Shown here: positions 1-21,181 of the stretch, one piece after another
Position numbering within the stretch: the first letter of the stretch is position 1
Layout: each line of letters starts with the position of its first letter
From: Chloroflexota bacterium
GTDB lineage: Bacteria > Chloroflexota > Limnocylindria > Limnocylindrales > CSP1-4
Direction of reading: 5' to 3'
NCBI GenBank assembly: GCA_021786385.1
Contig: JAJYNJ010000005.1
Location: 1 to 38,826, forward strand
DNA: 38,826 bases
Notes under the pieces: model-generated
The model's database searches: none
What the model saw: only the letters and a program-made list of their open reading frames with translations
What the model was told of the DNA's origin: nothing
Program-made: the position numbers and the translations under genes

Positions 1-2
1 CG

Positions 3-311
3 GCCGGGCAGCGCCTCGAGGAGCGCGCGCTGGCGGCCGTGGCCCGGCTCGTGCGTCCCTTCTACGACGTCGCCGGGCTCGCCTTCTTCAAGGACAAGTT
101 CGCGCCGCGCTGGGAGACGCGCTACGTGGCGGTTCCGTCGCGGGTGCATCTCGTGGGCCTCGCGCTGGCCCTGGCGCGCCTGCACCTCGGCAGCCTGCGG
201 GGTGCGCTCGCCCGCACCGCGGCCGACGTGGCGCGCTCGCAGGCAGCCTTGATCCGTCGCGCGAGGCGCGCCGCGGGCTGCCCGAGGCCCCCGGTGGGAT
301 CGCGGCCATGA
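3..311 (+). CDS. C-terminal part of DUF2156/LPG-synthase domain protein (5' end outside window)
   Basis: The frame is open from the window edge and ends at TGA 309-311, so only about 102 C-terminal residues are present. The motif FFKDKFAPRWETRYVAVPS is typical of the C-terminal end of the LPG_synthase_C (DUF2156) domain of MprF-type enzymes, which transfer an aminoacyl group from charged tRNA to phosphatidylglycerol at the membrane. A hydrophobic, Ala/Leu-rich stretch and a basic tail follow. Whether the missing part carries the MprF transmembrane flippase domain cannot be seen. A separate flippase-type gene lies about 550 bases downstream, so the two halves may be separate here. Family call fairly secure, exact substrate unknown. 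Confidence 0.7.
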   Translation, partial: AGQRLEERALAAVARLVRPFYDVAGLAFFKDKFAPRWETRYVAVPSRVHLVGLALALARLHLGSLRGALARTAADVARSQAALIRRARRAAGCPRPPVGSRP

Positions 312-11114: not shown

Positions 11115-11849
11115 TCAGTCGCGGCGAGCGGTGATCGCATCCACGATGCGACCCACGGCACGCATGAAGGTCGTGTGCGCGAGCCGCTCGACATCGCCTA
11201 ACGCCGCTTCGTAGGCGTCGTCGAACGGGATCGCTCCGAGCAGCGGGACGTCGAACCCGGCCAGCTGGGCCGCGAGCGGCGGTTCGTCGCCCCGGTGCAT
11301 GTTCTCGACCACGCCGAGCACCGGCAGGCGGAGCTCCCGGAACAGCTGCAGGGCCTTGCGGACCGTCTCGGTGGTGAGGACGGACGGTGTGGTGACGACC
11401 AGGTACTCGGCCCGCCCGAGCAGGCGCGCCGCGTCGAGGAGCGGATCGCTGAAGCCAGGTGGCATGTCGATCACGAGCCAGTCGAGATCGCCCCAGCGCG
11501 TGATCGCCAGCAGCTCGATCAGGGCGTTCGAGATCTCCTGGCCGCGCAGGGGTGCCGGTCGGTCGTCGATGAAGTGGACGATCGACATGAAGCGCAGGCC
11601 TTGCGCGATCGCGGGGACCAAGCCGCCGTCCTCGACCGGCCGGGCGTCCCGGATACCGAGGATCACGTGGGTCGACGGCCCGCAGAAGTCGAGGTCGAGC
11701 AGGCCGACCCGTTCGCCCCGTCGGGCGAGCCAGAGCGCGGCCGTCGCCGCCAGCGAGCTCTTGCCGATGCCCCCTTTGCCGCCGGTGACCGCCAGGATGC
11801 GCCGCACGCCGGCCATACGCCGGTCGATGATCTGTAGCCGCGGGTCCAC
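11115..11849 (-). CDS. MinD/Mrp-type P-loop ATPase, candidate atypical HypB
   Basis: A 244-residue protein with a deviant Walker A TGGKGGIGKSS (about residues 22-32), the DLDFCGPSTHV switch region, and DWLVIDMPPGFSD (Walker B). It belongs to the SIMIBI MinD/Mrp/NBP35 class but lacks the CPxC iron-sulfur motif that Mrp proteins have after VVENM (here VVENMHRGDEPP). It starts at GTG 11849, seven bases after the HypA stop. In Thermococcus the HypB partner of HypA is also a Mrp/MinD-type ATPase, so this gene may be the nucleotide-driven partner of HypA for nickel insertion. Typical GTPase HypB is not in the window. Alternative: a general Mrp-like carrier for metal clusters. Confidence 0.75.
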   Translation of the reverse strand: MDPRLQIIDRRMAGVRRILAVTGGKGGIGKSSLAATAALWLARRGERVGLLDLDFCGPSTHVILGIRDARPVEDGGLVPAIAQGLRFMSIVHFIDDRPAPLRGQEISNALIELLAITRWGDLDWLVIDMPPGFSDPLLDAARLLGRAEYLVVTTPSVLTTETVRKALQLFRELRLPVLGVVENMHRGDEPPLAAQLAGFDVPLLGAIPFDDAYEAALGDVERLAHTTFMRAVGRIVDAITARRD

Positions 11850-11855
11850 CTCGCG

Positions 11856-12263
11856 TCATCCTCCGATCGAGATGAGCGCGACGCCGCGCCCCGCGACGAT
11901 CTCGAAGTCCGGGCTTTCGCACGCCGGACAGGTGACGTAGATGTGGACGGTCTCGGGCAGGAGGTGAATGGCCTCCCGCTGGTCGGCTGGCAGCGCAGCG
12001 AACGACTCGGCGAGCAGCCAGGCGTGACCGCAGGCGAGACAGCGCAGTTCCGCCGGCTCGGCCTCGATGATGAACTGCACGCCCGCGAGCATCGGATCGT
12101 CGGGCGGCAAGACATGGCGGAGGGCGAACTCGAAGACCTCGCGGTCGATCTGCTGGAGCTCTCCGAGCCGCAGGTTGATCTCCCCGATCTGCTGCAGCCC
12201 TTGCTGCTGCGCGATCTTGACGGCGGTGGCGACCACCGCGTCGGCGAGCGCCCATTCGTGCAC
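11856..12263 (-). CDS. hypA: HypA/HybF hydrogenase nickel-incorporation protein
   Basis: A 135-residue protein beginning MHEWALADAVV; His2 with Glu3 is the HypA nickel site. The zinc domain has CLACGHAW and CPACESPDFEIVAG (two CxxC knuckles about 40 residues apart), and the C-terminus GVALISIGG fits the family. It delivers nickel to [NiFe]-hydrogenase or urease maturation. It starts at GTG 12263 with GGAGGG upstream. It lies between the NifX-like gene and the MinD-type ATPase on the same strand. No hydrogenase structural gene is in the window. Confidence 0.85.
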   Translation of the reverse strand: MHEWALADAVVATAVKIAQQQGLQQIGEINLRLGELQQIDREVFEFALRHVLPPDDPMLAGVQFIIEAEPAELRCLACGHAWLLAESFAALPADQREAIHLLPETVHIYVTCPACESPDFEIVAGRGVALISIGG

Positions 12264-12309
12264 TGATCGGCCCTCCGCAGCTCTCCCGACGCGCGCGGTG
12301 CGCGGACGG

Positions 12310-12645
12310 CTACGCCGAACGTGCCGCAGCCGCGGTCACCGCCGTGCGGGCGTCGCCGGCCGCACCCAGTCGAACGGCGAGCCCCATCCGCTCGAGCATA
12401 TGGTGCATCTCCTCGCCCATGTGGTGCGCCACGACGGCCTCGACGTGGTGGTCCCGCAGGAAACGGGCCACCCGCGCGTGGTGCGAACCTTCCGTGCCGG
12501 CGTCGTGAAGGTCGCCCCACCCGACGTCGAACTCCTCCCAGCGCACCAGCGTGCCCGCCTCCACGCCGGCGATTGCGACGCGGGCGGCACGTCCCCAGCG
12601 CGGATCGACCTGCCCGTCGCTCGTCACCGGCACGCAAACCACCAT
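12310..12645 (-). CDS. NifX/NifB-type dinitrogenase FeMo-cofactor domain protein
   Basis: A 111-residue single-domain protein of the Nitro_FeMo-Co family. It begins VVCVPVTSDGQVDPRWGRA and has VVAHHMGEEMHHMLERMGL, the central block that normally reads like ...GxGP.....L...GI. ATG 12645 has a perfect AGGAGG site. Stand-alone members are widespread in organisms that do not fix nitrogen and bind or carry metal clusters. It is upstream of hypA and the MinD-type ATPase, which supports a metal-centre maturation group. The His-rich HH..E..HH stretch could bind metal. Confidence 0.7.
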   Translation of the reverse strand: MVVCVPVTSDGQVDPRWGRAARVAIAGVEAGTLVRWEEFDVGWGDLHDAGTEGSHHARVARFLRDHHVEAVVAHHMGEEMHHMLERMGLAVRLGAAGDARTAVTAAAARSA

Positions 12646-12727: not shown

Positions 12728-15399
12728 TCAGGCGCCCCGCGGGGGGATGCCCAGCAGCCCGCGCAGGCGTGCCGCGTTCATTCCGCCACGGTCACCCGCC
12801 CGGCCCCGATCCCGCGTGCGCCGCTCTTCCCACGCCATGTCGTCGAGCAACGCCTCGAGCTCGGGGCGGGCCGCGTCGTCGGCGGCTGCCTGGCGCGGCG
12901 TGAGTCCTCCGAGGGCCGGGATCGGCTGGTCGACCCAGCGCCCCTCGTAGTCGCGCATGAACGTGTCGAGGGCCGCGGCCACCTCCGGGTGGGCATCGAG
13001 GTCGATCGGCTCGGCGGCCGACCTCTCTCCCGCGGCGGACGACGCAAGCGCATCGTCGACGGAGCGCTCCTCGCGTCGAACGAGCCGCGCCCCGGGGGCG
13101 GCCTTCCGGAGCGTGCGGGCCAGCCGTTCTGCCCGCCTGGCGGAGTTCGCCTCGATCGTCGCGTGGTCGCCCGAGAGCTGGATCGTGCCACGGAGCCAGC
13201 GTTGGCCTTGGCGGGTGACGGTCTCGACGAACCGGCCGTCGCCCTCGTCGTCGAGCGTGTGGGCCAGCGCCGTGGCGGTGGCCACCGGATCCGAGACCTG
13301 GTAGGTGGCCGTGACGAAGCGGAGCGGCTCGCCCTCGGTGTTGCGCACCTCGATCGGCAGCGCGGGCGCTGCGAACCAGCGCAGCAGCGCCACGCCATCC
13401 GCGGCGCGCAACAGGTCGACCACTCGGCGACGCTGCAGTCGAGGCACGAGGAAGCCACCGGCCGTGGTGACACCGCCGGCGCCGTCCGGCAGAAGCCGCA
13501 GGCAGAGCAGGTCGAGCGGTTCGGCTCGGCTCGAGATCGTCCGGTCCGCGAGCTCCACGATCCCGTCGCCCAGCAAGTCCCTGAGCGTCACGCCCGCTCC
13601 CGGTCGCACCGCCTGGACCTCGTAGAGCGATCGACGTGACGCCAGCCAGGCGCGCCCAAGCGCCCGTTCCCGCTCCGGCAACAGGGTGCCACGCACCTCG
13701 AGGAACCGCGCCAGCTGCCCCTGGTCGAAGAGGAGGATGTCGTTCACGAGCGGTTGATCGACGAGGTCCTCGGGGGGATCACCGGCGTGTTCGTCCTGTG
13801 CCAGACGCACGAGTTCGGCCGCTCGGTGCTGGTTGTCCGGCTGGGCCAACCACCAGGAAACCTTGTGCAGTAGCGCGCTCGCGGGATCGACGCTGCTCTC
13901 CACGGGCCTCGCACGAGTTCGGCCGCTCGGTGCTGGTTGTCCGGCTGGGCCAACCACCAGGAAACCTTGTGCAGTAGCGCGCTCGCGGGATCGACGCTGC
14001 TCTCCACGGGCCTGCCGAGGTGGCACGCCTTGTATTTGCGGCCGGAACCGCAGGGACACGGCTCGTTGCGTCCGACCGCCGGGAAGGCCGGGCGGAGGAC
14101 CGTCTCGAGCCAGGCGCGTTCCGGATCGTCGGGCGGCACACCGGCGGCGCGCAGGTCCGTCAGCGCACCGCGATAGTCGCCGCGGTCGACGTCGTAGTGG
14201 GCGAGCTCCAGGCAGACCGGGCCGTAACCCGGTTCGGCGGTGGCGGCCGAGCGCAGCAGCCCTTCGGCAGCGGCCACGTCATCGCGCGCCTCAGCGCACG
14301 CGGCGAGGACGAGGTCGACGCCCGCCACGTGTCGGCCGCCCGCCGCGCGGCCGATGGCGGCAACGAACGGCTCGAGCGCGGGCTCGGTCCACGCCCGGGT
14401 CGCCACCAGGTGCGCGATCGACGGCAGGGCCAGGATCTCGGCGAGACGCGCGAGGACTTCCCGATCGGCGATGCCGCCCAGCCGTCGGTGGAGCTCGAAG
14501 GCACCCATGACGATCCGCAGGGCGTCGAGCTCCATGGGATCCAGCCCGAGCGCGCGGGCGATGGCGTCGTCCGATGCATCGTCCTCCGCCGTCCGGTCGT
14601 CGTCCGGGTCGTCGTCGTCCGCCCAGTCGTCTTCCTCTTCGTCGAACGACCAGAACTCGTCGACCAGCGACCAGTCCGTGCCGGGGAGCCCGACCTGGGC
14701 ACGGTGTACCTCGAGACCGGCCGCGCTGAACGCCTCACTGAACGGCGCGACGGGCTGCCGGAGGAGCGCCGGGTCGTCGGCCAGCGCATCGAGCACGAGC
14801 GTCTCGAGGAGCACGGTGGGCGGCACGAAGGGCAAGGCGGGGGCCTCGAGCCGTGCCTTCGCGGCCTCCGTGAGACGGCGCGCGACCATGCGCGATGCGG
14901 CGGGCGGCGGTGGCGCGGGGGAGATCTCGAGGGTGCTGCCGGCGACCCTGACCTGCACGAGGGTCCCCGTCCGCTGGGCGAGCCAGCCGGCAGGTCCGAC
15001 GAGCGCCGCGTCGCAGTCGAGCGGCACGGCGTCGCGAGCCTCGGCGTCGAAGACGAACGCAAGTGGGCGCCCATCGGGCAGGCGCAGGCCCACCGGCGCG
15101 AGCATCTCGAGGGGGGCCAGATCGGCGTCGAGCGCGAGCGCCCTGTGCTGCGCCTCTTCGCGTCGGAGTCGGTGGGTGAACGTCGCGCCGTCGAGCAGCT
15201 GGCTGGGGACGGCCCAGCGATCGTCGGTCAGCCGACGGAAGCGGGGATCGTTGCCAAGGGCGCGCGAGACGGCCCGGGCCGGCCGCTGCGCGCGTGTCCG
15301 GCCGTCTGCAGCGAGTGCGCGACCGAGCTCGTCCGCCGCCAGAACGCGGTGTTCGGCGAGGAGCTGGAGTGCGGCGTCGGCAAGTGTGGTTCGCGGCAT
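12728..15399 (-). pseudogene. SEC-C motif protein gene split by a 104-base tandem duplication
   Basis: ATG 15399 opens a frame with a winged-helix-like N-terminus (LADAALQLLAEHRVLAADEL), a very acidic stretch around 14580-14660 (DDDDPDDD), a helical repeat region, and the SEC-C zinc motif NEPCPCGSGRKYKACHLG at about 14020-14075. Just after it lies a 104-base duplication (13807-14014). Because 104 is not a multiple of three, the frame is lost and stops at 13744 (551 residues). The downstream half continues in the shifted frame to TGA 12728. Removing one copy restores a single 855-residue protein. SEC-C motifs bind zinc and occur in SecA and many proteins of unknown role; the function of this one is unknown. 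It could be a recent mutation, a reversible switch or an assembly error. Confidence 0.75.
13807..14014. repeat. 104-base tandem duplication inside the SEC-C gene
   Basis: 13807-13909 and 13911-14013 are identical over 103 bases, from GCACGAGTTCGGCC to CCACGGGCCT. The lack of any divergence points to a recent event or to an assembly artefact. Confidence 0.9.
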
Positions 15400-17656: not shown

Positions 17657-18853
17657 ATGGCGCGGATCATCGTCTACACGGGCAAGGGCGGCGTCGGCAA
17701 GACCAGCGTGGCGGCCGCCACGGGCCTGCTCGCCGCCGAGCGCGGCTATCGCACGATCGTGGTCTCGACCGACGCTGCGCACAGCCTTGCCGATTCGTTC
17801 GACATGGCGCTTGGCCCCGAGCCGGTGGCCGTCGCCCCGAACTTGTGGGGCCAAGAGTCGGAAGTCACCCACAACATCGAGAAGTACTGGGGGACGATCC
17901 AGGCCTACGTCTCGAGCGTCTTCCAGTGGCGGGGCCTCGACGAGGTGATGGCCGAGGAGATGAGCGTGCTCCCCGGCATGGACGAGCTGGCGAGCCTGCT
18001 CTGGATCGCCGAACATCACGACCGGGGCGGGTACGACGTGATCGTGGTGGACGCAGCGCCCACCGGCGAAACGCTGCGCCTCCTCTCGCTCCCCGAGGCG
18101 GGCAAGTGGTGGATCGAGAAGATCTACCCGATCCAGCGGAAGATCGCCCAGGTGGCCAACCCGATCGTGGGCCGCGTGATCGGGATGCCGATGCCAGGCG
18201 ACGCCGTCTACACAGCCGGCGAGGAGCTCTTCGGCCGGCTCGAGCACATGCATGACCTGCTCGTGAACCCGGAACTCACCTCGATCCGGCTCGTCCTGAA
18301 CTTGGAGAAGATGGTGATCAAGGAGGCGCAGCGCGCCTTCACGTACTTCCACCTCTACGGGTATCCCACCGACCTCGTCATCTGCAACCGGGTCGTCCCC
18401 GACGACGCGGGCCCCTATTTCGAGGCGTGGCGGCAGGTGCAGGCCCGCTACTGGCCGGAGGTGCAGGCCGACTTCGACCCGATCCCGATCCGCCGCGCGC
18501 CGTTCTTCGAGCACGAGGTAGTCGGTATCCCCATGCTGCGGGAGCTGGGTGGCGCCCTGTTCGGCGACGAGGACCCGACCGCGTTCTTCTACCGCGGTCG
18601 GCCCTACAGCGTACACCGCGAGGACGGGGCCTTCGTGCTTTCGCTCGAGCTGCCGTTCACCGCGAAAGACGAGGTCCGTCTCCGCCGCAGCGGCGACGAG
18701 TTGGTGGTGCAGGTGGGGTGGTGGCGGCGCAACCTCATCCTGCCCCGCGTGCTGGTGGATCTGCCCACGGCCTCCGCGGGATTCGACGATCATGTGTTGA
18801 AGGTCAGATTCGCGGCGAAGCCGCATAGGCAGGCAGGAGCGTCGAAGCAATGA
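17657..18853 (+). CDS. ArsA/Get3-family ATPase with C-terminal HSP20-like domain
   Basis: A 398-residue protein. Walker A GKGGVGKTS (about residues 10-18), switch motif STDAAHSLADSFD and Walker B-like VIVVDAAPTGETLRLL place it in the ArsA/Get3 family. The last 80 or so residues (from about 310, YSVHREDGAFVLSLELPF...) form the HSP20-like domain (ArsA_HSP20). Such bacterial proteins are not arsenite pumps with certainty; their real cargo is mostly unknown. GGAGG lies just before the ATG. Its TGA overlaps the ATG of the next small gene (ATGA), so both are made together. Confidence 0.85.
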   Translation: MARIIVYTGKGGVGKTSVAAATGLLAAERGYRTIVVSTDAAHSLADSFDMALGPEPVAVAPNLWGQESEVTHNIEKYWGTIQAYVSSVFQWRGLDEVMAEEMSVLPGMDELASLLWIAEHHDRGGYDVIVVDAAPTGETLRLLSLPEAGKWWIEKIYPIQRKIAQVANPIVGRVIGMPMPGDAVYTAGEELFGRLEHMHDLLVNPELTSIRLVLNLEKMVIKEAQRAFTYFHLYGYPTDLVICNRVVPDDAGPYFEAWRQVQARYWPEVQADFDPIPIRRAPFFEHEVVGIPMLRELGGALFGDEDPTAFFYRGRPYSVHREDGAFVLSLELPFTAKDEVRLRRSGDELVVQVGWWRRNLILPRVLVDLPTASAGFDDHVLKVRFAAKPHRQAGASKQ

Positions 18854-19112: not shown

Positions 19113-19193
19113 GGCGGCCTGTTGCCGGCGGATGGCGTTGGCGGCCTGTTGTCGCCATATCGCGCTGGCGGCCTGTTGCCGCCGTCTGTTCCG
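19113..19193. repeat. 27-base tandem repeat, three copies
   Basis: Copies begin at 19113, 19140 and 19167, each opening with GGCGGCCTGTTG and diverging in the second half. They fill the gap before the archease gene. Confidence 0.75.
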
Positions 19194-19223
19194 GCGGCGC
19201 CAGCGCTGCAGGGGAGGGAGCGG

Positions 19224-19664
19224 ATGGGCGCCCAAGAGCGCTCGCATGCGTTCCTGCCGCACACGGCGGACGCGGGCCTGGTGGCCCATGCTGCCACGCT
19301 GGCGGAGCTCTTCGAGGAGGGGGCCCTTGCGCTCGCCGAACTGGCGGCCGACACCGCTGGCGCGGCGGGAGCTCCCGTCGTCGTCGGCCCGCTCGCCGCC
19401 GACGATCTGGCCGGGCTGGCCTTCGCCTGGCTCAACGAACTGATCGGGATCGCCGAGTCCGAGGGGCGTGCGCTGGTCCGAGCGCAGGTGGAGCGAGTGG
19501 AGGGGACGGCCGACGGCTGGACCATCGCGGGTTCCGCGTTCCTCGCGCCGTACGACGCCCCGAGTGTCCGAGCGCGCCGGCAGGTCAAGGCGGTCAGTTT
19601 TCATCGGCTGGGGGTGGAGGAAGGGCCCGACGGGTACGCCCTGACGGCCTACGTGGACGTGTGA
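19224..19664 (+). CDS. Archease (RtcB cofactor protein)
   Basis: A 146-residue protein starting at ATG 19224, with AGGGGAGGGAG upstream. It begins HAFLPHTADAGLVAHAATLAELF, the archease N-terminus (F.DHTADI), and ends DGYALTAYVDV, with the metal-binding Asp near the C-terminus. Archease promotes guanylylation and turnover of the RNA ligase RtcB. Its stop overlaps the GTG start of rtcB (GTGA), a direct link to that partner. Confidence 0.88.
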   Translation: MGAQERSHAFLPHTADAGLVAHAATLAELFEEGALALAELAADTAGAAGAPVVVGPLAADDLAGLAFAWLNELIGIAESEGRALVRAQVERVEGTADGWTIAGSAFLAPYDAPSVRARRQVKAVSFHRLGVEEGPDGYALTAYVDV

Positions 19665-21181
19665 ACGCGCGACGCGACCGGCTACGACCGTCTGCCCGAA
19701 CCGAGTCACCGCTCGTCGGTCCAGCTCGTTCCGAGCAGGCGCCGCTGCGCCTCGAGCGCATCGACGCGTGGCGCTGGCGGATCCCCCGGGACGAACGGCG
19801 CGGGATGCGCGTGGACGGCTTCGTCTTCGCCGACGATCGCCTGATGGCGCGCCTCCGCGACGATCCGGCGCTGGTGCAGGTCGCCAACGTGGCGACGCTG
19901 CCCGGGATCGTGGGGGCTTCGCTGGCGATGCCTGACGTCCACTGGGGGTACGGCTTCCCGGTGGGGGGCGTGGCGGCGACGCTCGCCGATGGTGGCGCGA
20001 TCAGCCCGGGCGGCATCGGCTTCGACATCAACTGCGGCGTCCGCCTGCTCCGCACCAGCCTGCTGCGCGGCGATCTGGAGCCAGTCGCGGCGCGCCTTGC
20101 CGACGAGCTCTTCCGGGCCGTCCCGTCGGGGGTTGGCGCGCACGGCGGGCAGCGCCTGGCGCAACGCGATCTCGACGGCGTGCTGGCCGAGGGTGCGGCC
20201 TGGGCCGTGCGGCACGGCCTGGGAAACGCCGAGGACCTGGAGTTGACCGAGGAACGCGGGACGCTCGCCGGCGCGGACCCCGTGGCGGTCTCCGACCGGG
20301 CGCGGCAGCGCGGCGGGGATCAGTTGGGGACGCTTGGGTCCGGCAACCACTTCCTCGAGGTCCAGGCCGTCGACCGGATCCTCGACGGCGATGGCGCCCG
20401 GGCACTGGGGCTCGCGCTGGAGCAGCTCGTGGTCCTGATCCATTGTGGATCGCGCGGCCTCGGGCACCAGGTCTGCACCGATCACCTGGCGGTGATGGAT
20501 CGCGCGGCCGGTCGGTACGGCATCGTGCTGCCCGACCGCCAGCTCGCCTGCGTCCCCCTCGGCACGCCCGAGGCGAACGCCTACCTCGCGGCGATGGCCG
20601 CGGCCGCCAACTTCGCCTGGGCCAACCGCCAGGCCATCACCCACGCAGTACGCGGCGCGTTCGGACGGGTCTTCGGCGCCGGCGTGGCTACCGCGATGGG
20701 GCTGGTCTATGACGTCAGTCACAACATCGCCAAGCTAGAACGCCACCAGGTCGCCGGACGCGAGCTCGAGGTCTGCGTGCACCGCAAAGGTGCCACTCGC
20801 GCCTTCCCAGCCGGGCACCAGGACGTGCCGCTGCGCTACCGCGCGGTGGGGCAGCCGGTCCTGATCCCAGGGGACATGGCCCGCTACTCGTTCGTGGCAG
20901 TGGGTGCCCCGGGGGCCATGGAGCTCTCGTTTGGATCGACGTGTCATGGGGCCGGGCGCGACCTCTCGCGACACGCGGCGATCCGCGAGCTGCGCGGCGT
21001 CGACATCGCGGCCCAGCTGGCGCACGAGGGGATCGTGGTCCGCGCCCAGCGGCCGGACCTGCTCGCCGAGGAGGCCGCCCTGGCCTACAAGGACGTCGCG
21101 TCCGTGGTCGAGGTAGCCGCGGGGGCGGGGCTGATCCGTCCGGTGGCCCGCCTGCGGCCGCTCATCGTGATCAAGGGCTGA
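19661..21181 (+). CDS. rtcB: RNA-splicing ligase RtcB
   Basis: A 506-residue protein. Family blocks in order: PDVHWGYGFPVGGVAA, GGIGFDINCGVRLLR (Mn-binding Cys), LGSGNHFLEVQ, HCGSRGLGHQV, VYDVSHNIAKLE, VCVHRKGATRAFPAGH, and GSTCHGAGRDLSR with the His that takes up GMP. It joins RNA 2',3'-cyclic phosphate and 5'-OH ends using GTP. It starts at GTG 19661 within the archease stop. The open frame extends further upstream, but that part is antiparallel to nothing conserved and covers archease in another frame. A hairpin at 21183-21201 follows the stop. The native substrate (tRNA halves, damaged RNA) is unknown. Confidence 0.92.
   Translation: MNARRDRLRPSARTESPLVGPARSEQAPLRLERIDAWRWRIPRDERRGMRVDGFVFADDRLMARLRDDPALVQVANVATLPGIVGASLAMPDVHWGYGFPVGGVAATLADGGAISPGGIGFDINCGVRLLRTSLLRGDLEPVAARLADELFRAVPSGVGAHGGQRLAQRDLDGVLAEGAAWAVRHGLGNAEDLELTEERGTLAGADPVAVSDRARQRGGDQLGTLGSGNHFLEVQAVDRILDGDGARALGLALEQLVVLIHCGSRGLGHQVCTDHLAVMDRAAGRYGIVLPDRQLACVPLGTPEANAYLAAMAAAANFAWANRQAITHAVRGAFGRVFGAGVATAMGLVYDVSHNIAKLERHQVAGRELEVCVHRKGATRAFPAGHQDVPLRYRAVGQPVLIPGDMARYSFVAVGAPGAMELSFGSTCHGAGRDLSRHAAIRELRGVDIAAQLAHEGIVVRAQRPDLLAEEAALAYKDVASVVEVAAGAGLIRPVARLRPLIVIKG

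Follow-up and report, generated by a model that had tools for sequence, protein, structure and literature searches.

In the canonical bacterial system, nickel insertion is the task of HypA (TIGR00100) and of HypB (TIGR00073), which is a G3E GTPase. In Thermococcus kodakarensis, by contrast, HypA is paired with a HypB that is an ATPase of the Mrp/MinD type, as described from the structures PDB 3vx3, 5aun and 3a43 (Sasaki 2013 and Watanabe 2015, as cited in PMC7055735 and PMC9164220). In the literature examined, the ATPase type of HypB is described as archaeal. A locus in a Chloroflexota bacterium, where hypA lies between the genes for a Mrp/MinD-fold ATPase and a NifX-like protein, raises the question of whether a bacterium can use the archaeal kind of nickel insertion, and whether the NifX-like protein takes part in it. 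It is very likely that hypA and the ATPase gene are a horizontally acquired archaeal-type nickel-insertion pair, and that they provide the only HypA and HypB of this bacterium.

The locus and the archaeal type of its two Hyp proteins

The genome under study (G000) is a 2.68 Mb draft of 100 contigs, 95.8% complete with 1.88% contamination. The window, meaning the whole stretch of 38,826 nucleotides that was analysed, belongs to contig C18. Three open frames lie on its minus strand, in the 5' to 3' order NifX-like gene, hypA, ATPase gene:

11115..11849, minus strand: ATPase of the archaeal HypB type ('mmHypB'), 244 aa, GTG start; assigned by its match to T. kodakarensis HypB (TkHypB, 3vx3) and by the tree
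11856..12263, minus strand: HypA of the archaeal long type, 135 aa, GTG start; assigned by NF003008 and its match to TkHypA
12310..12645, minus strand: NifX-like (Nitro_FeMo-Co) protein, 111 aa; assigned by PF02579

The three genes at 11115–12645 are those of the preliminary description, and all three products score above the curated Pfam cut-offs (NUBPL/ParA-type P-loop ATPase, 173 bits; HypA, 76 bits; Nitro_FeMo-Co, 43 bits against a cut-off of 26.3). The G+C pattern over codon positions favours coding by both hypA and the ATPase gene; the NifX-like frame was missed by a simple filter of this kind, and is called on its Pfam match. Only 6 bp separate hypA from the ATPase gene, and upstream of hypA a gap of 46 bp follows the end of the NifX-like gene. 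No hydrogenase operon adjoins the pair.

Elsewhere in the window, a 104-nt unit is perfectly duplicated in tandem at positions 13806–14013, within a gene that has a SEC-C-like motif (CPCGSGRKYKACH); the length of the unit is not divisible by 3, and the duplication therefore causes a frameshift. The gene at 17657–18853 encodes an ATPase of the Get3/ArsA type that has an HSP20-like domain at its C terminus (ArsA_ATPase, 290 bits; ArsA_HSP20, 70 bits), and at 19122–21181 a gene for archease precedes one for an RtcB RNA ligase.

Among solved structures, the best match to the ATPase is TkHypB (3vx3, E 1.8e-67, residues 1–233), and the TkHypB entries 5aun–5auq match as well; the best Mrp comes next, at E 3.6e-36. 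The protein has a deviant Walker A motif, GGKGGIGKS, and a DMPPG switch, motifs with which it would be expected to hydrolyse ATP. No TIGR00073 or G3E GTPase profile is found among its 17 NCBIfam matches. In a maximum-likelihood tree of 81 sequences, which include 29 Mrp proteins and among them the bacterium's own, the ATPase groups with TkHypB and the archaeal HypB ATPases, apart from the Mrp clade (support 100/100). Three bacterial sequences, from G000 and two further genomes of its family (G031 and G256), form one clade (100/99) within the archaeal group. The ATPase is therefore of the TkHypB type by both its grouping and the adjacency of its gene to hypA, and is neither a Mrp/ApbC carrier nor a canonical HypB GTPase.

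HypA is of the matching type. It exceeds the cut-off of the NCBIfam equivalog NF003008/PRK03824 (154.9 bits against 125) and falls under that of the general bacterial TIGR00100. Its only PDB match is TkHypA (3a43/5aun, E 1.7e-26), which has been crystallised in complex with the TkHypB ATPase. The protein has the MHEW nickel site, the zinc cysteines CxxC...CxxC and an insert (IHLLPE) with the counterpart of TkHypA His98, here His100; in the Thermococcus HypAB complex, His98 and the MHE motif coordinate nickel (PMC7055735). With its profile score, the MHE motif, two CxxC motifs and the insert, it belongs to the archaeal-type HypA family (PRK03824). The His98 counterpart, MHE and the four cysteines are kept in 48/48 archaeal-type HypA proteins, the three bacterial ones included, and the insert is missing from all 7 ordinary HypA proteins. 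The canonical HypA thus has the fold, MHE motif and zinc site in common with this protein, but not the His98 insert. The HypA tree agrees with that of the ATPase, placing a bacterial clade (98/99) among archaeal-type HypA.

The remaining parts of a nickel pathway are in place. The genome encodes three [NiFe]-hydrogenase large subunits:

C53: group-1-like [NiFe]-hydrogenase with its small subunit
C83: Vhu/Mvh-like [NiFe]-hydrogenase near HdrA
C62: sulfhydrogenase-like [NiFe]-hydrogenase

HypC, HypD and HypE are confirmed by profiles, and HypF was read from the sequence of contig C54. The HypA at 11856..12263 is the only one in the genome; a second, weak Pfam HypA match spans just a zinc-finger-like stretch of a 924-aa frame. 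A canonical GTPase HypB gave no TIGR00073 match at E 0.001, although at 95.8% completeness such a gene could sit in a gap. The search suggested in the preliminary description, for canonical hypB and for [NiFe]-hydrogenase genes, thus returned the hydrogenases and HypCDEF and no hypB. Together with the grouping of the ATPase with TkHypB, this bears out the proposal that the locus is a bacterial version of the atypical HypA–HypB system of Thermococcus.

Distribution of the pair and its NifX-like neighbour

The pair is rare in the bacterial family and phylum sampled. The ATPase occurs in 3 of the 107 genomes of the bacterial family (G000, G031 and G256), and in the phylum sample archaeal-type HypA was found in 2 of 400 genomes and the ATPase in 2 of 201. 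The pair was found in 20/295 genomes of one archaeal phylum (that of locus L067) and in 76/300 of another (that of L068). In the scan of named genomes, the archaeal relatives among the matches listed are in Methanophagales, Bathyarchaeota, Methanosarcinales and Nitrososphaeria. The pairs of Methanophagales, Bathyarchaeota and relatives (L067, L068 and L069) also have the two genes adjacent or nearby, with ATPases 49–54% identical to that of the bacterium, and lie near hypE or hydrogenase genes; they differ in their lower G+C and in their archaeal hosts, a group where the pair is widespread. Viral contigs held nothing like the ATPase: partial matches reached at most 47%, comparable to those of ordinary Mrp relatives. 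Among plasmids, there was no match at E 1e-35.

The association of the two genes is close wherever it was seen in bacteria: they are 3 and 2 bp apart in G031 and G256, the copies of which are diverged (53–59% identity). The pair and canonical hypB are mutually exclusive among the genomes sampled. Within one genus (g2), the pair is present in G031, where no canonical hypB exceeds the cut-off, and G131, G240 and G250 have canonical hypA–hypB; four archaeal genomes with the pair likewise have no hypB over the cut-off. G256 is of the same genus as G000, but in the tree its ATPase is joined to the one encoded by G031, a genome of the other genus (100/98), so the history of the pair in the family is not simply vertical, which suggests that it has been exchanged within the family.

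The preliminary description had taken the NifX-like protein as a metal-cluster carrier within a distinct three-part module, in which it would pass nickel or a cluster to HypA–HypB. The same strand and the short upstream gap make it probable that its gene is co-transcribed with the pair, and its 9 histidines in 111 residues make a metal role thinkable. It also matches the MrpORP profile weakly, and the NifX-like domain included in that profile shows that such domains are elsewhere associated with Mrp-type ATPases. Against such a module, the pair has no NifX-like neighbour in the two other bacteria (G031 and G256) or at the 51 archaeal loci, and permissive thresholds brought no convincing match; moreover, the archaeal pair works without a NifX-like protein. 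These neighbourhoods rule out the protein as a conserved partner of the pair, and a three-part module is improbable. Slightly less probable still is the fuller version of this idea, that an archaeal ATPase-driven HypAB replaced the native machinery and serves the three [NiFe]-hydrogenases with the His-rich NifX-like protein recruited as nickel donor. The NifX-like protein has no PDB match, and its single-sequence fold prediction was poor (pLDDT 57). Its gene may be no more than a passenger, or it may have been added locally. Because the neighbour does not recur, the pair is best regarded as the known archaeal system in a bacterium, and not as the new kind of nickel-insertion module that had been envisaged.

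Probable displacement of the native hypA genes

Related genomes indicate what the pair has probably replaced. In G224, G237, G263 and G247 (of the genus of G000), the protease and ACT-domain genes behind a Vhu-like large subunit (3c operon) have an ordinary hypA between them. At this site in G000 the protease and ACT genes are present and hypA is missing. A second site is found in G139 and G268: there, a protease gene and hypF flank a divergent hypA-like gene. In G000 this hypA-like gene is gone, and the protease frame ends in what appear to be its last codons. This relic corresponds to the last 33 nt of the hypA-like gene, with 29/33 nt as in G268 and 24/33 as in G139; none of 5000 random segments was as good as the 29/33 match to G268. 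In these six relatives (G139, G224, G237, G247, G263 and G268), all of the genus of G000 and most of them 60–91% complete, ordinary or divergent hypA was found and no HypB of either type.

The likeliest history is that the archaeal pair was gained and both native hypA copies were lost. We infer that the transfer went from archaea to the bacterium; this direction is drawn from the distribution of the pair and not from the tree, because archaeal monophyly without the bacteria was not rejected by an AU test (p 0.28).

A different origin of these observations would be that the contig is a contaminant or a product of strain mixture, so that the pair comes from a cell other than the one holding the hydrogenases. 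The assembly is a draft of 100 contigs, and C18 (at window positions 1–284) has a 284-bp end in common with C83, at 96% identity and with different DNA beyond, which makes some strain mixture in the assembly possible; the shared end is taken to be either repeated sequence or a difference between strains. However, the contig's G+C of 71% and its tetranucleotide profile resemble those of the other contigs (r about 0.90) and are unlike those of archaea (r below 0.2), the diverged copies occur in two more bacterial genomes of the family, and both native hypA sites are empty in G000 itself. This explanation is accordingly very improbable. The C83 end that matches the window carries part of a gene that adjoins the operon of the Vhu-like hydrogenase.

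The remaining alternative, an ordinary iron-sulfur carrier of the Mrp/ApbC kind that lies beside hypA by chance, is scarcely credible: the ATPase belongs to the P-loop ATPase superfamily of the Mrp/ApbC/NUBPL and MrpORP carriers, and MrpORP and ApbC are its nearest NCBIfam models, but its scores are far below their cut-offs (154 against 450 and 139 against 348), it stands outside the clade of the 29 Mrp proteins, and hypA adjoins or is close to the gene of its archaeal counterpart at 43/51 archaeal loci and lies beside none of 29 Mrp genes. As had been remarked at the outset, the CPxC motif of Mrp is also lacking; the ATPase has a single cysteine (C56) and no CxxC, while the genome encodes a separate, genuine Mrp with the motif (FVCPHCGE; C62:166259-166786). 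Tree, profile cut-offs and motif rule out an ordinary Mrp, as far as sequence can tell.

Proposed mechanism and implications

In the Thermococcus model, an ATP-bound HypB dimer and two HypA form a nanomolar nickel site, hydrolysis frees Ni-HypA, and HypA delivers the nickel to the large subunit (PMC7055735, PMC12134894). By analogy with this complex, the ATP-bound ATPase dimer of the bacterium would bind two HypA, and binding would reshape HypA such that the N-terminal MHE and His100 form a high-affinity nickel site. ATP hydrolysis would then free Ni-HypA, which would load nickel into large subunits where HypCDEF have already installed Fe(CN)2CO. The sequence motifs for each step are present in HypA and the ATPase, and both complex formation and nickel transfer would be expected to take place in G000 as in Thermococcus.

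The likeness to the T. kodakarensis system extends over the full length of both proteins, and includes the adjacent genes, the nickel and zinc ligands with His98, and the lack of a GTPase HypB. The bacterial pair differs in its host, in an ATPase of about 52% identity, in its NifX-like neighbour and in the apparent displacement of native hypA. A literature search, which reached the primary Thermococcus papers through citations, found no paper naming mmHypB, or HypB, MinD, hydrogenase and Chloroflexi together; the novelty of the pair in bacteria is thus provisional.

Since the bacterium has an archaeal HypA/HypB pair and no ordinary HypB was found, and since its own hypA genes have been lost, the core metal-insertion step of hydrogenase maturation appears to have been swapped for the archaeal one. 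For annotation, a missing hypB need not imply that hydrogenase maturation is missing, and a 'Mrp' gene beside hypA probably encodes HypB. The emptied native hypA sites, together with sister genomes that keep the ordinary system, amount to a natural replacement experiment, and pose two questions: can unrelated hydrogenase large subunits receive their nickel from a foreign HypA, and can ATP-driven and GTP-driven insertion of nickel replace one another?
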